Source of the DNA: Nitrosomonas sp.
GTDB taxonomy: Bacteria > Pseudomonadota > Gammaproteobacteria > Burkholderiales > Nitrosomonadaceae
Reading direction: 5' to 3'
DNA: 32,718 bases
Assembly: GCA_030682075.1 (NCBI GenBank)
Contig: JAUXRH010000339.1
Coordinates: 1 to 32,718 of the forward strand
A program made the translations under genes and the position numbers. The notes under the pieces were generated by a model, which saw only the letters and a program-made list of their open reading frames with translations, was not told the DNA's origin and did not search any database. Shown here in pieces: positions 4,561-32,418 of this stretch. Each line of letters opens with the position of its first letter. Within the stretch, counting starts at the first letter, position 1.

Positions 4561-4645
4561 GCCGACGTGGTGGAATTGGTAGACACGCCGTCTTGAGGGG
4601 GCGGTGGCGAAAGCTGTGCGAGTTCGAGTCTCGCCGTCGGCACCA
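4561..4645 (+). tRNA. tRNA-Leu (anticodon GAG)
   Basis: An 85-base gene that folds into a full cloverleaf. The acceptor stem pairs 4561-4567 with 4635-4641, followed by discriminator A and an encoded CCA (4643-4645). The anticodon stem CCGTC/GGCGG holds the loop TTGAGGG, with anticodon GAG at 4595-4597, reading CUC and CUU. A long variable arm marks it as class II (Leu/Ser type), and the T arm is GCGAG-TTCGAGT-CTCGC. The sequence resembles E. coli leuU in the D-loop and anticodon region. The upstream 70 bases are very AT-rich and may hold its promoter, but no well-spaced -35/-10 pair was clear. Confidence 0.96.
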
Positions 4646-7965: not shown

Positions 7966-9239
7966 CCCAGTTCACTCAGACACTACTCGCAGGTGTCGAT
8001 TCATCTGATGCAGAGAACTGGCAGCTAAAGAATTATGCGCGGCGTAGTGGCTATTCTGCCATCAGAAAGATACTGTCAAATAAGATTTCGCCCGATAGCG
8101 TCATTGAAGAAGTGAAGAAATCAGCATTGCGTGGTCGTGGTGGCGCAGGATTTCCTACTGGGTTGAAATGGAGTTTTATGCCTAAGCAGTATGAAGGCGA
8201 CAAATATATTGTTTGTAACTCAGATGAGGGCGAGCCAGGTACTTTCAAAGATCGCGATATCATGCGCCACAATCCACATATCCTGATCGAAGGTATGATC
8301 ATTGCAGCCTACGCAATGGGTGTTAAAGTCGGCTACAATTACATACATGGCGAAATCTGGGATACTTATGAACGAATGGAAGAGGCAGTAGAGGAAGCGC
8401 GTGCCGCAGGTTACCTTGGTAATAATATACTGGGATCTAACTTTTCTTTTAATTTATATAACCACCATGGTTATGGTGCCTATATATGTGGTGAAGAAAC
8501 CGCATTATTGGAATCAATTGAGGGAAAGAAGGGTCAGCCTCGTTTCAAGCCGCCTTTTCCTGCGAACTATGGCCTTTATGGAAAACCGACTACAATAAAT
8601 AATACTGAGACGTTTGCTTCGGTTCCATGGATCATACTTAATGGTGGCGAGCAATATCTGAAACTGGGTAAGCCAAATAACGGCGGTACCAAATTATTTT
8701 CTGTATCTGGTCATGTCAACAAACCAGGGAACTACGAGATTCCGATGGGCACACCATTTGCAACTTTACTTGAAATGGCGGGTGGTATGCGTGGCGGGAA
8801 AAAACTAAAAGCATGTATACCTGGCGGTTCTTCGATGCCTGTATTGCCAGGGGAAATTATGATGCAAACCGATATGGATTACGATTCGATTGCTAAGGCG
8901 GGGTCCATGTTGGGTTCTGGGGCAGTGATCATTATGGATGAAACAACCTGTATGGTGAAAGCGCTAGAACGATTGTCTTATTTCTATTTTGAAGAATCAT
9001 GTGGTCAATGCACACCTTGCCGTGAGGGTACTGGTTGGCTTTATCGTATTGTCAATCGCATAGAGCACGGTAAAGGTCTGATGGAAGATCTCGATCTGCT
9101 TGATAATATCGCCGATAATATCCAGGGGCGTACCATATGTGCTTTAGGCGATGCTGCAGCAATGCCAGTACGTGCAATGATTCAGCATTTTCGTAATGAA
9201 TTTATTTACCATATTGAACATAAAAAATGTATGGTTTAA
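7962..9239 (+). CDS. nuoF: NADH-quinone oxidoreductase subunit F (NADH/FMN-binding)
   Basis: The 51-kDa subunit where NADH meets complex I; it binds FMN and [4Fe-4S] cluster N3. Glycine-rich [14 protein letters not shown] (57-70) is the nucleotide-binding loop and [13 protein letters not shown] is the second signature. [15 protein letters not shown] binds FMN. The N3 ligands are Cys347, Cys350 and Cys353 in [13 protein letters not shown], with Cys393 in [11 protein letters not shown]. At 425 aa it is a normal length, starting at the ATGA overlap with nuoE. A 73-base gap to nuoG holds no clear feature. Confidence 0.97.
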
Positions 9240-27764: not shown

Positions 27765-28373
27765 GTGTTTTCTTTAATTCAAGCTGCTGGCTGGCCAATC
27801 TGGCCAATTATTATTGCTTCCATTATAGCCGTTGGTATTATAGGCGAGCGTATGTGGACATTACGTCTGAGTATTGTTTCTCCCAAAGAATTATTGCCCA
27901 GAGTATTAAACGAGTATAAAAGAAATGGCGTAAGTTCTGAAATGATTGCGCGACTACAGGAGAACTCACCCCTAGGGCATATTTTTGCAGCGGGTTTAAA
28001 GAATGCCGAAGCTTCGCGCGAAGTCATGAAGGAATCCATTGAAGAAGCGGGGCGCGAGGTTGCACATAACCTTGATCGTAACCTTACGACGTTGGGAACA
28101 ATTGCTTCATTGAGTCCACTCATGGGTTTATTTGGAACGTTGGTCGGCATGATTGAAATTTTTGGCTCTAACTCTCCGACGGGTGGTAATCCGGCACAAC
28201 TTGCTTACGGTATTTCTGTGGCATTGTATAATGCTGCTTTTGGCATTTTAGTGGCAATTCCCAGTATGATTTTTTACCGGCATTTTCGCGCGAAAGTTGA
28301 TGCATTAGTGATGGAAATGGAATTGCAAGCATTAAAATTAGTGGAAATAGTGCATGGTGATCGACAGAGTTAA
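27765..28373 (+). CDS. exbB: ExbB/TolQ family proton-channel protein
   Basis: Inner-membrane protein (202 aa) of the MotA/TolQ/ExbB family, which with an ExbD/TolR partner uses proton flow to energise TonB- or Tol-linked transport at the outer membrane. Three membrane helices are visible (about 10-30, 108-130, 146-168). The conserved core is LGTIASLSPLMGLFGTLVGMIEIF, with the channel-lining Thr, and ISVALYNAAFGILVAIPSMIFY. GAGGAGA lies 7 bases before GTG 27765. Usually exbD follows immediately; here a decayed, unrelated gene follows, so the partner must be encoded elsewhere. Confidence 0.88.
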   Translation: MFSLIQAAGWPIWPIIIASIIAVGIIGERMWTLRLSIVSPKELLPRVLNEYKRNGVSSEMIARLQENSPLGHIFAAGLKNAEASREVMKESIEEAGREVAHNLDRNLTTLGTIASLSPLMGLFGTLVGMIEIFGSNSPTGGNPAQLAYGISVALYNAAFGILVAIPSMIFYRHFRAKVDALVMEMELQALKLVEIVHGDRQS

Positions 28374-28399
28374 TCTTTCGGTAAAGTTATCCAACTCAA

Positions 28400-28882
28400 T
28401 CTGTGATGCCAGATCAGTGCAGCGTGCTTTATAAAAAGTGCGGCATATCGATCACTTGGCTGTAACCCAGATAGATCTGCGAGCGCATGATAAAATTTCT
28501 CGCTGAGCAAGGAGTTTTCAGGCTGTACACGACAGCTTGCTGGTTATTGTGGTAGTGCCAACATTACTCATCGGTTTCGGGCATTGTTTGACTACACCGC
28601 CGATTCATTTGATTCAGGATTTGCTTAATATTAAGACACCCACTTGCTTGACAACGACCGGGATTCAATTTGCTGGATGTTTGTGATGTTGTCAAGGGAC
28701 ATGCTGGAAAACTATTGCAATTAATGAAAAGAATAATAGGTCTTTCCATGCCGAGGAAATTTGCTCCTTACTGGGTTGCCTTAACCGCACGTGTATTATC
28801 GGAGCTTATGGCAGATCATATTTTTTGCTGCCTAGATTTACTCAAAATAAATAGTGTACTGGCTGATGAACAGAATAGATAA
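28400..28882 (+). pseudogene. Decayed NAD-dependent epimerase, probably HpnA-type
   Basis: Three pieces in different frames line up in order with the middle and end of hopanoid-associated/NAD-dependent sugar epimerases. Piece 1 (28487-28552) reads KFLAEQGVFRL, like the family's YxRSKxLAEQ. Piece 2 (28531-28683) reads LVIVVVPTLLIGFGH then TTPPIHLIQDLLNIKTP, like PVVIVNPTxxIGPGDxxPTPT...ILDFLNGKMP. Piece 3 (about 28658-28882) reads GFNLLDVCDVVKGHAGKLLQ, like GLNxVDVxDVAxGHLLA, then RKFAPYWVALTARVLSELMADHI. At least two frameshifts, a missing stretch after KGHA, and no recognisable N-terminal NAD-binding GxxGxxG segment show that it is not functional. The start is approximate. It lies just before the mlaA-shc-hpnG genes. 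Assignment to HpnA rather than another epimerase is inference from context. Confidence 0.65.
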
Positions 28883-29648
28883 AAGACTGGGAAATGCTGG
28901 CTCAAGAATCAGGTGTAATTACCTGACTGCCATAATGTTGTTTCTTTTTTTGATCGTTTCTTCAGGTTGTGCTTCGGTTCCCACAAACGGCCATGAAGTG
29001 GATGAAATTGATCCATATGAAGATATTAATCGTATATCTTATGATATTACGGATACTGTTGACCGGATGATTCTGGAGCCGATTGTTGATGTCTATGTGG
29101 AATATGTGCCCAATGGAACGCAACGCTCAGTGGGCAATTTTTATGATAATTTGTCTTACCCAAATGTTGCTTTAAATGCTTTATTGCAGGGTAAAGCGCG
29201 CCAGGGATTTCGAGATAGCCTTCGTTTTGTCGTTAACTCAACTGTGGGCCTTTTGGGATTGTTTGATATGGCGACACACATGGGGCTAGAAAAAAATAAT
29301 GAAGATTTTGGACAGACATTAGGTGTTTGGGGGGTTGACGCCAGTACCTATGGGTTTATTCCATTCTACGGTCCTACGAGTAATCGTGATGTAGCAGATA
29401 TTCCAGTGAGTGTTGTGACCAATATTTTGTTTTATGCGAGTTATATGGTCAGCGCAACCGTCTTTGCGCCACTCACTGTGCTGAGTGCCATCGACAAGCG
29501 GGCGCGTATGTCAGGGCCAATGCAAATTCGTGACCAAGCGGCACTTGATCCTTATTTATTTGTACGCGAGGCTTATTTGCAGAACCGTGAGTATCTCGTC
29601 CACGATGGTAATGTGCCCCCTGTGATTTATGATGATCCAATGCATTAG
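28866..29648 (+). CDS. mlaA: MlaA/VacJ family outer-membrane lipoprotein
   Basis: Outer-membrane lipoprotein that removes misplaced phospholipids from the outer leaflet and passes them to the Mla pathway. The 260-aa protein has a lipoprotein signal with a hydrophobic stretch (20-33) and lipidation Cys35 in VSSGCAS. The family core follows: DPYEDINRISYDITDTVDR, PNVALNALLQGKARQGFRDS and NSTVGLLGLFDMATHMGL, then EDFGQTLGVWGV and PFYGPTSNRDVAD. GTG 28854 is an alternative start; neither start has a clear ribosome site. The first codons overlap the end of the decayed epimerase. shc begins 35 bases after the stop, suggesting one operon with hopanoid genes. Confidence 0.9.
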   Translation: MNRIDKRLGNAGSRIRCNYLTAIMLFLFLIVSSGCASVPTNGHEVDEIDPYEDINRISYDITDTVDRMILEPIVDVYVEYVPNGTQRSVGNFYDNLSYPNVALNALLQGKARQGFRDSLRFVVNSTVGLLGLFDMATHMGLEKNNEDFGQTLGVWGVDASTYGFIPFYGPTSNRDVADIPVSVVTNILFYASYMVSATVFAPLTVLSAIDKRARMSGPMQIRDQAALDPYLFVREAYLQNREYLVHDGNVPPVIYDDPMH

Positions 29649-29683: not shown

Positions 29684-31678
29684 ATGAACGGATTGAATAG
29701 AATATCAAGTGTGTTACAGCGCGTAGTTAACTTCACGCGAATAGATGAAACAGCTTTTTTTCAACATTTGTCAAGCCCAGCGAATCAGGATGCAGTAGAT
29801 CGCACGGTGCTGGAAGAGAAATTTAAATCAGCTCGCAAGGCATTGTTGTCTTTACAACAGGCTGATGGACACTGGTGTTTTCCATTACAAGCGGATTGCA
29901 CGATCCCTGCAGAATACATTCTGATGATGCACTTTATGGATGAAGTGAACGTGGGGCTGGAAAACAGACTGGCGCGTTATATCCGTGATCAACAGGACTT
30001 TAAGCACGGCGGCTGGCCATTGTATTACGGCGGACATTTCGACATCAGTTGTACAATTAAAGCCTACTATGCGCTGAAGCTGGTCGGTGATTCTCCTGAT
30101 GCAGAACATATGGTGAGTGCGCGTCGTGCGGTTTTGGCAGCAGGAGGGGCCGCACGTGCCAATGTCTTTACGCGCATACTGTTGGCTATGTTTGACCAGA
30201 TACCCTGGCGAGGCGCGCCGGTGGTTCCGGTGGAACTTATTTTGTTGCCACGATGGTCTCCCTTCCACCTGAGTAAAATTTCGTACTGGTCGCGGACGGT
30301 GGTAGTTCCATTGTCTGTATTGTGTTCACTGAAAGCGCGTGCGGCCAATCCACGTAACATTCATATTCGTGAATTGTTCACTGTGGCACCAGAGGATGAG
30401 CGCAACTACTTTCCGCCCGCGCGTACGCGCCTCAATCGGCTGTTCCTGTCGATTGAACATATTTACTCACTGCTTGAACCCTATATTCCCAAAGCTTTGC
30501 GTCGTTTAGCAATACGTCGAGCAGAAAGCTGGATAATTGAGCGGCTCAACGGTGAGTGCGGTCTGGGTGCCATTTTTCCGGCCATGGTTAATGCTTATGA
30601 GGCCCTGACATTATTAGGCTATGCTGCCGATAATCCCTCGCGCGAGCAATGCCGTAAAGCATTACTGGGATTGTTGGTTGAAGAAGGCGATCGAGCCTGG
30701 TGCCAGCCCTGCACATCACCGGTATGGGATACGGTTCTGACAAGTCTTGCGCTGCAGGAAGATCAAGAGACAGACCAGGAACCTGTCCGCAAAGCGCTTG
30801 ATTGGCTGATACCGCTGCAGATACGGGAGGCGCCCGGAGATTGGCGGGATAATTGTCCAGAATTGGCCGGTGGTGGCTGGGCTTTTCAGTACGCTAATCC
30901 GCATTACCCGGATCTCGATGATACTGCAGCAGTGGCCTGGGCCATGAGCCAATCGGATTCTCAGGCTTATCATGAGAGTATTGAGCGAGCCGCGAACTGG
31001 TTGGCGGGTATGCAGTCCCGTGACGGAGGGTTTGCAGCGTTTAATATCGATAATACTTATCATTATCTCAACGAAATTCCTTTTGCTGATCATGGCGCCT
31101 TGATTGATCCGCCGACGAGTGACGTTACGGCTCGCTGTGTCGGGTTTCTGGCTAAATATGGTAAACCACGCCATCAGGATGCAGTGCAACGCGGCATGGA
31201 TTTTCTGTTGCGCGAACAAGAACCAGGCGGTGCCTGGTTTGGACGCTGGGGTAGTAATTACATTTACGGCACCTGGTCGGTACTGGAGGCCTTCCGCCTG
31301 GCAAACGTCAGTGTTAATCATGGTGCGATTGTTCGCGCAGCAAACTGGTTGAAGTCAGTGCAACGTGAGGATGGCGGGTGGGGAGAAGGTAATGATACTT
31401 ATTTTGCTCCTCAGCAAGCGGGCCAGTTTGAAACCAGCACTTATTTTCAGACCGCGTGGGCATTACTCGGTCTCATGGCGGCTGGACAAGTCCATAGCCA
31501 ACAAGTCAATGACGGTATTAACTTCCTGTTACGTCATCAAGCCAGTGATGGCCTGTGGCAAGAGCCGTGGTTTACTGCCCCAGGTTTTCCTCGCGTCTTC
31601 TATTTAAATTATCACGGTTATTCAAAGTATTTTCCGTTATGGGCATTGGCAAGATATCGCGCATTGACTCGAAGGTAA
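29684..31678 (+). CDS. shc: Squalene-hopene cyclase
   Basis: Membrane-associated cyclase that folds squalene into hopene and hopanol, the core of hopanoid membrane lipids. The 664-aa protein has the catalytic acid motif DLDDTA (Asp410 to Ala415, the DXDDTA motif) and several QW repeats, such as QQADGHW, QSRDGGF, QEPGGAWFGRWG, QREDGGWGEG and QASDGLWQEPWF, arranged around two alpha/alpha barrels. The C-terminus YLNYHGYSKYFPLWALARY is typical. GGATGGA precedes ATG 29684. The gene is visibly richer in GC than the nuo genes. hpnG follows after 5 bases. Confidence 0.97.
   Translation: MNGLNRISSVLQRVVNFTRIDETAFFQHLSSPANQDAVDRTVLEEKFKSARKALLSLQQADGHWCFPLQADCTIPAEYILMMHFMDEVNVGLENRLARYIRDQQDFKHGGWPLYYGGHFDISCTIKAYYALKLVGDSPDAEHMVSARRAVLAAGGAARANVFTRILLAMFDQIPWRGAPVVPVELILLPRWSPFHLSKISYWSRTVVVPLSVLCSLKARAANPRNIHIRELFTVAPEDERNYFPPARTRLNRLFLSIEHIYSLLEPYIPKALRRLAIRRAESWIIERLNGECGLGAIFPAMVNAYEALTLLGYAADNPSREQCRKALLGLLVEEGDRAWCQPCTSPVWDTVLTSLALQEDQETDQEPVRKALDWLIPLQIREAPGDWRDNCPELAGGGWAFQYANPHYPDLDDTAAVAWAMSQSDSQAYHESIERAANWLAGMQSRDGGFAAFNIDNTYHYLNEIPFADHGALIDPPTSDVTARCVGFLAKYGKPRHQDAVQRGMDFLLREQEPGGAWFGRWGSNYIYGTWSVLEAFRLANVSVNHGAIVRAANWLKSVQREDGGWGEGNDTYFAPQQAGQFETSTYFQTAWALLGLMAAGQVHSQQVNDGINFLLRHQASDGLWQEPWFTAPGFPRVFYLNYHGYSKYFPLWALARYRALTRR
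31672..31675 (+). promoter_or_regulatory. Ribosome binding site deciding the hpnG start
   Basis: AAGG at the very end of shc, 8 bases before GTG 31684. The open frame continues 43 codons upstream inside shc, but that part has no family resemblance. Confidence 0.55.
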
Positions 31679-31683
31679 GCAAC

Positions 31684-32418
31684 GTGGAAATAGTCGGCGT
31701 GATTACCGCAATCCGCGCTGAGGCAAGTTGTATCATTTCAAAAACCTTACCCTTTAACCAAATGGCAGGTCTGGGAAATGATTCCGTCATCTGGCTTTGT
31801 GGAATGGGGCATAGTGCCGCGCGGGAAGCTGCGACCGGAATGCAGGCCGGAGGCGTCACTGCATTGGTAAGTTTTGGTGTTGCGGGCGCTTTGGATTCAA
31901 GTCTGCGCCCAGGCGATCTGGTATTGCCGCAATGGATACATACTGATGGGCAAGTTCAATCGGTTGATCTGGATTGGCGTGACCGGTTAAAGCAACGGCT
32001 GCCATCCGATTTATCTGTGGTCGGGGGTACCTTGGTGACCAGCCGGGAAGTACTGACGACGCAGGCGGCGAAGCGTGAACTGGCAGAAACTACGGGTGCT
32101 TGTGCGGTAGATATGGAAAGTGGTGCAATTGCTGAAGTGGCCGCCAGTGCGGGAATTCCATTTCTTGCTATTCGTGCAATTACCGACCCGTTTGAGTTTT
32201 CTCCCCCTGCCGCATTGTTAAATGCGGTGCGTCCAGATGGTACGGTCTATGGCCTGCGTTTGCTCAAATTATTATTGTGGCAGTCAGTTTCTGTCAGCAC
32301 GCTGCTACGTCTGGGAAAGGGTATGCGCGCGGCATGCGGCACACTGTCAACGGTGGCTCGACATGCGGATAAGGAATTGGGCGGCATATCCCGGAAATCT
32401 ACTTCGGCTGTTCGTTAA
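31684..32418 (+). CDS. hpnG: Hopanoid-associated phosphorylase/nucleosidase HpnG
   Basis: Purine-nucleosidase-like enzyme that removes adenine from adenosylhopane, giving ribosylhopane on the way to extended hopanoids. The 244-aa protein (from GTG 31684) has the nucleosidase fold: SFGVAGALDSSLRPGDLVLP (63-82) and the ribose-binding segment DMESGAIAEVA (143-153), with Glu145 in the Met-Glu-Ser signature, then IPFLAIRAITDP. The start is chosen because of AAGG 8 bases upstream and its position 5 bases after shc. hpnH, which makes adenosylhopane, is not in the window. Confidence 0.9.
   Translation: MEIVGVITAIRAEASCIISKTLPFNQMAGLGNDSVIWLCGMGHSAAREAATGMQAGGVTALVSFGVAGALDSSLRPGDLVLPQWIHTDGQVQSVDLDWRDRLKQRLPSDLSVVGGTLVTSREVLTTQAAKRELAETTGACAVDMESGAIAEVAASAGIPFLAIRAITDPFEFSPPAALLNAVRPDGTVYGLRLLKLLLWQSVSVSTLLRLGKGMRAACGTLSTVARHADKELGGISRKSTSAVR

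Follow-up and report, generated by a model that had tools for sequence, protein, structure and literature searches.

Genes and features at the locus

The window, that is, the whole stretch of 32,718 nucleotides of Nitrosomonas DNA that was analysed, carries a gene for a proton channel of the MotA/TolQ/ExbB type, followed by a spacer and then by mlaA, shc and hpnG (Table 1). In sister species the genes stand in the order motA/exbB-like gene, HpnA-like gene (here termed copy A), mlaA, shc and hpnG. The match to TIGR03468 covers residues 59–267 of the listed hpnG ORF and, because this ORF overlaps shc, the true start of hpnG probably lies further in. An orthologue of the MotA/ExbB-like gene (E 1e-10) is present at 80 of the 81 loci read in the genus, the exception being G097, where a 69-base match far upstream is all that was seen. 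By eye, an ExbD-like gene follows the MotA/ExbB-like gene in other genomes of the order (L027, L028, L029 and L030), and none was seen after it at the Nitrosomonas loci read.

The gap between the MotA-like gene and mlaA contains no ORF of at least 90 codons on either strand. An RNA gene in the spacer was discarded as a candidate, since Rfam at gathering scores returned no RNA in the gap and gave a single match in the window, a tRNA at 4561–4642 (tRNA-Leu). The region 28300–29000 has a single promoter-like site, where 1.5 are expected, and two terminator-like ones, for which shuffles give an expectation of 0.3; both of the latter fall at 28499–28539, within the remnant described below, and are probably incidental.

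Table 1. Genes and remnant pieces between the proton channel gene and hpnG; residue numbers follow the open frame of L010.
Feature	Position	Strand	Remarks
MotA/TolQ/ExbB-type proton channel gene, upstream neighbour	27765–28373	+	PF01618, E 3.7e-31
Remnant piece 1, residues about 51–85	28387–28494	+	internal TAA at 28432–28434
Remnant piece 2, KFLAEQ	28493–28510	+	frame 2; crossed by the DNA alignment to G074
Remnant piece 3, VPTLL...DLLN, VVVPTLLIGFGHCLTTPPIHLIQDLLN, residues about 155–201	28510–28653	+	frame 1
Remnant piece 4, FNLLD...ADHI, GFNLLDVCDVVKGH...YWVALTARVLSELMADHI, residues about 204–278	28661–28822	+	frame 2
mlaA, lipoprotein gene, downstream neighbour	28854–29648	+	PF04333, E 5e-63
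shc, squalene-hopene cyclase	29684–31678	+	TIGR01507, 803 bits, cut-off 431
hpnG, hopanoid-associated phosphorylase (listed ORF)	31555–32418	+	TIGR03468, 221 bits, cut-off 187

The spacer holds a gene remnant

The remnant of an HpnA-like gene occupies 28387–28822. A DNA search with the spacer against 40 relatives and the window's own genome (G000) was nearly empty, yielding besides the spacer itself 58 bases at 76% in G004, so that comparison at the protein level was needed. Nine distinct intact proteins from the same genus served as tblastn queries against the whole 32.7-kb window (that of L008 was run again under the identifier L032). All nine matched the last piece, and eight matched the final two in order, with joint E values from 1e-12 down to 1.6e-18; L022 matched the last piece only (7e-8), and other matches within the window had E values of 0.1 or worse. 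Piece 3 reaches 45.1 bits with L010, 48.9 with G077 and 53.1 with G044, and piece 4, from which 21 residues are missing internally, 57.0 bits with L008 and 62.4 with G044. The translated comparison with epimerases was thus significant: the best scores in the spacer were 57.4, 45.1 and 29.3 bits, and 1000 dinucleotide-shuffled versions of the spacer (480 bases) gave at most 25.4 bits. Intact genes of G074, G075 and G077 were also compared as DNA; the best alignment, that with G074, runs from KFLAEQ through KGH and covers 212 bases at 66% (E 2e-8).

Piece 1 is more weakly supported than the others. It is matched by six of the nine proteins, with E values against the window from 0.005 (L010) to 0.34 (L012); its best score there, 29.3 bits, exceeds the shuffle maximum of 25.4, some proteins give just 23.5–24.6 bits, and with G044 it reaches 32.0 bits in an alignment that continues past 28494. 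The lysine of KFLAEQ aligns with that of the YxxxK segment (GPYCxxK) in intact copies, the tyrosine lying in the deleted part. We take GPYCxxK to be the YxxxK motif of the active site, and TGxxGxxG to be the nucleotide-binding motif.

The original prediction had described three pieces in the order of conserved epimerase blocks, and all three (KFLAEQ, VPTLL... and FNLLD...) were located as described. It had placed them in different frames between 28400 and 28882. The frame changes are real, but only two frames are involved, between which the pieces alternate; likewise the core of the extent stands, but a piece upstream had been missed, and 28823–28882 has no homology to intact copies. A decayed ExbD gene had been considered first, because the spacer comes after a MotA/ExbB-like gene and is of about the length that we presume for ExbD; this candidate was dropped, as relatives hold an intact HpnA-like ORF here and the pieces of the spacer match that ORF.

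Lesions

The decay by frameshifts and internal deletion that had been predicted was found, together with further damage. In the numbering of the L010 open frame, roughly the first 45–50 codons are gone at the N-terminal end and about 64 at the C-terminal end. Internally, about 63 codons are deleted at 28494, just before KFLAEQ, and 21 at about 28705, a total of about 84; the frame changes around 28493–28510 and around 28653–28661, and there is one stop codon (Table 1). The N-terminal TGxxGxxG and the tyrosine of YxxxK are lost, and only the KFLAEQ lysine is left. With a stop, frame changes and deletions both inside and at the two ends, a complete enzyme is impossible. A family search of the window's own genome with TIGR03466 (E up to 0.001) gave nine places, and C39, which is the window, was not among them. 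The lesions disable the gene in the window, and close relatives carry its syntenic orthologue intact, as is expected of a pseudogene.

What the lost gene was

The intact frames first read at the locus, in several genomes of the genus, have 342–373 codons with an N-terminal TGGGGFIG and the GPYCxxK motif. The four intact orthologues tested first all pass the HpnA model TIGR03466 (377–415 bits, cut-off 367.65), and the two tested against Pfam, L008 and L019, match PF01370 and PF01073, which upholds the predicted HpnA or NAD-dependent epimerase type. Across the genus there are 38 genes of copy A, 37 at the locus and one relocated in G051. The TIGR03466 cut-off is passed by 25 of them, and the other 13 lie slightly below it (352–367 bits), those of the nearest relatives included (G075, 362.8; G077, 361.6). 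At each of the 37 intact loci copy A stands directly before mlaA and shc. At 35 of these hpnG is visible as well; in the other two, G004 and G074, the stretch ends early.

Where copy A is intact, dN/dS is 0.054–0.197 (14 pairs), indicating that it was a real gene. In 10 of these pairs copy A has a higher value than each of its three neighbours, in three it does not, and in the remaining pair two neighbour values were saturated. Genomes that retain copy A keep it under constraint, although it is frequently lost.

Two further kinds of HpnA-type gene occur. In a FastTree tree of 56 sequences that sorts the HpnA-type genes of the family into groups, a clade of copy A comprises the 37 at the locus and one from another genus (support 0.91), a clade of copy B comprises 11 sequences (0.995), and six sequences of copy C lie outside A+B, which has a support of 0.988; copy C is not a single clade, as that of G051 joins the A+B side. 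In 69 of the 85 genomes copy C scores 465–505 bits on TIGR03466. An intact copy A and a copy B are both absent from the window's own genome, which has an intact copy C at C265:10666–11646 (503.8 bits, cut-off 368), adjoining a squalene-synthase-like gene. On account of these scores and this neighbour, copy C is taken as the canonical HpnA; the intact copy A of L008 is 37% identical to it. Judged by these comparisons, the lost gene is a diverged HpnA-like paralogue that straddles the cut-off of the HpnA model, and not the main HpnA.

Copy B was seen after a PanE/ApbA-like gene at L113, L114, L115 and L117 (Nitrosomonas; by eye) and at L214 and L215 (another genus), and no such gene was found beside it at L212, L213 and L222 (a third genus). 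The PanE/ApbA-like gene of L113 fell below the cut-off in a family search, and two copy B genes tested fell below that of HpnA.

An intact copy A away from mlaA-shc-hpnG was observed twice, at L224, 8159–9175 (G051; C7:115167–116162), and at L211, 7132–8127 (G106, another genus). The 14-kb stretch around the latter, in one genome of that genus, contains no motA, mlaA, shc or hpnG; in G051 no hopanoid gene was recognised by eye beside the relocated copy, and the neighbourhoods of L211 and L224 gave no functional hint by eye. In G078 a broken copy A lies elsewhere, at L122, about 8190–9180 (C1:2099193–2100180), with nothing detected at the usual locus.

Distribution and recurrence of the loss

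The 85 genomes of the genus were searched with MlaA, and the locus was readable in 81, the window included (G005, G014, G057 and G069 were left out, having no readable locus). Copy A is intact at 37 of these loci, a remnant at 15 and undetected at 29. An intact copy is an open frame of 338–380 codons exactly between the MotA/ExbB-like gene and mlaA, which confirms the predicted position before mlaA-shc-hpnG as that of a gene. ‘Intact’ denotes one open frame of at least 338 codons with the motif present and wide coverage (G048, with 351 codons, was counted here despite one TGA in the aligned stretch), and ‘undetected’ denotes no tblastn match at 1e-3, a class in which faint remnants may hide and which includes G097, where the MotA-like gene is poorly seen. 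The loss is not peculiar to one strain, as had been supposed, for 44 of the 81 loci have no intact gene.

A maximum-likelihood tree of the proteins of three genes at this locus (MotA-like, MlaA and Shc) was rooted at its midpoint; 57 of its 78 nodes have UFboot values of at least 95. Assuming ancestral presence and no regain, 18 losses are counted on it, and 18 again when nodes under 95 are collapsed. As copy A of G051 is intact elsewhere, this case was subtracted; the same gene thus appears to have decayed or vanished repeatedly in the genus, about 17 times. The window is sister to G075 and G077 (UFboot 100), and since both have an intact copy A, the loss is specific to the window's lineage. 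Elsewhere decay is recent, as indicated by G094 (intact) and G062 (broken), whose loci align at 94–96% in three long segments. Among the literature matches listed for HpnA, hopanoids and Nitrosomonas, nothing on this locus was noticed.

HpnA complement of the genomes

The genome of the window retains intact shc, hpnG and hpnH genes, and its HpnH scores 552 bits. A full copy C is present in 36 of the 43 genomes with the locus in which no intact copy A was found anywhere; of the rest, G008 combines a partial copy C with a copy B, and G015 has copy B only. No HpnA-family match of any of the three kinds was obtained at E 1e-60 in G001 (L110), G012 (L111), G046 (L107), G047 (L108) and G097 (L112). 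At a looser cut, G001 and G046 gave weak matches only (best 1.8e-7 and 3.5e-7), and G012, G047, which is 80% complete, and G097 gave none at 1e-5. All five keep HpnH. G001, G046 and G097 also have a readable mlaA-shc-hpnG block; the shc of G047 runs off the end of its contig, and the stretch of G012 showed no shc. HpnA matches are likewise absent from a sixth genome, G014, which is 83% complete and whose locus could not be read. Seven genomes show the opposite pattern and keep copy A without a copy C match: G009, G017, G021, G023, G045, G048 and G074.

Interpretation and alternatives

The sequence at 28387–28822 is very probably an in-place remnant of copy A, an HpnA-like gene of the SDR fold that was probably dispensable beside the remaining canonical HpnA and was lost about 17 times in the genus. 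Copy A, a putative NAD-dependent epimerase/dehydratase, would originally have stood intact between the motA/exbB-like gene and mlaA; in the window's lineage it acquired the stop and the frame changes, and deletions took away both ends and about 84 internal codons. It would have been dispensable with copy C covering for it: the genes are present, and their functional redundancy is our reading of that presence. Dispensability is probable because the canonical copy C remains and because shc, hpnG and hpnH are intact, and ordinary decay of a dispensable paralogue is the most likely explanation. Some observations fit it less well. Copies A and C share about 37% identity and may do different jobs, which counts against redundancy; purifying selection on the intact copy A argues against uselessness; the 76 codons still open at 28655–28882 may be expressed; the intact genes of G075 and G077, the nearest relatives, lie a little under the HpnA cut-off; and a model of pure redundancy does not explain the five genomes without HpnA or the seven with copy A and no copy C match.

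The decay could instead have removed a distinct hopanoid-modifying step, so that the hopanoid side chain would differ from that of relatives with copy A; we regard this as possible though unlikely. Copy A adjoins mlaA-shc wherever it is intact at the locus and is under purifying selection, and its clade is separate from copy C, such that it may have a substrate of its own. Against this stands the recurrence of the loss, and the placements in L211 and G051, where no hopanoid neighbours are recognised, leave the hopanoid link of copy A resting on position and family name. This is the loss of a hopanoid-linked step that the original prediction had proposed; it is not supported, a higher-scoring HpnA (504 bits), shc, hpnG and hpnH all being intact.

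Replacement of copy A by copy B (45–49% identical and often beside a PanE/ApbA-like gene), with copy A lost mainly where copy B is present, is a distinctly unlikely alternative. An intact copy A is lacking at the locus in 16 of 18 carriers of copy B versus 28 of 63 non-carriers (Fisher p 0.001, G051 counting as without copy A), and an association as strong arose in 47 of 3000 simulations of copy B on the tree, which were kept if they gave 12–24 carriers. The association test was, however, chosen after the data had been seen; moreover, 28 of the 44 genomes without copy A also have no copy B, and the window's own genome is one with neither.

A more specific and improbable reading is that HpnA-type enzymes act in the reduction of ribosylhopane to bacteriohopanetetrol, Nitrosomonas being a natural knock-out series (copies A and C; C only, as in the window; C and B; no HpnA). 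The lineages without HpnA would then be expected to retain HpnH and HpnG while making aminobacteriohopanetriol instead of bacteriohopanetetrol. The literature on HpnA and on Nitrosomonas hopanoids motivates this reading and does not establish it. In PMC12583986, both the function of HpnA and the enzyme that turns ribosylhopane into bacteriohopanetetrol are described as not yet established. PMC5462960 mentions the suggestion that HpnA carries out that step and also gives some evidence against it, namely that HpnA was not essential in Burkholderia cenocepacia and that some producers, Rhodopseudomonas among them, lack it. For Nitrosomonas, a review (PMC5516240) gives aminobacteriohopanetriol and diploptene, and PMC8537080 reports N-acyl aminotriols from N. 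europaea.

It is very improbable that the 76 codons left open at 28655–28882 encode a small epimerase-derived protein that has a function, as could be predicted from the open frame and its still recognisable residues; the nucleotide-binding end and the YxxxK segment are missing from it, it bears the 21-codon deletion, and other genomes keep other parts of the gene (residues 222–334 in G006, 245–334 in G065 and 1–198 in G096), so that no single piece is kept throughout. That the gene is in truth intact and only looks broken through errors of sequencing or assembly has a negligible chance, even in a genome of 340 contigs: the spacer has 484 bases versus 1196 in G075, with about 700 missing in several separate places, the main pieces are 40–50% identical to the G077 protein whereas MlaA is 76% identical to its counterpart there, and large deletions at both ends and inside, with in-place decay in other genomes, make such an error unlikely.

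Comparison with known systems

A single pseudogene is ordinary, and its recurrent loss within the genus is the more useful result. The roughly 17 natural losses beside a near-constant mlaA-shc-hpnG, together with the genomes that have no HpnA, would allow the hopanoids of related species to be compared without mutants. The remnant resembles an ordinary bacterial pseudogene formed by in-place decay in its frame changes, stop, deletions and intact syntenic relatives, and stands out from it only by the repeated loss within one genus. As for the families concerned, the orthologues of copy A match the HpnA model (TIGR03466) over nearly its full length, with 352–431 bits as against 465–505 for the canonical HpnA of the same genus, whereas PF01370 (NAD-dependent epimerase/dehydratase) and PF01073 (3-beta-HSD), matched by L008 and L019, place copy A within a broad superfamily that implies no specific substrate.
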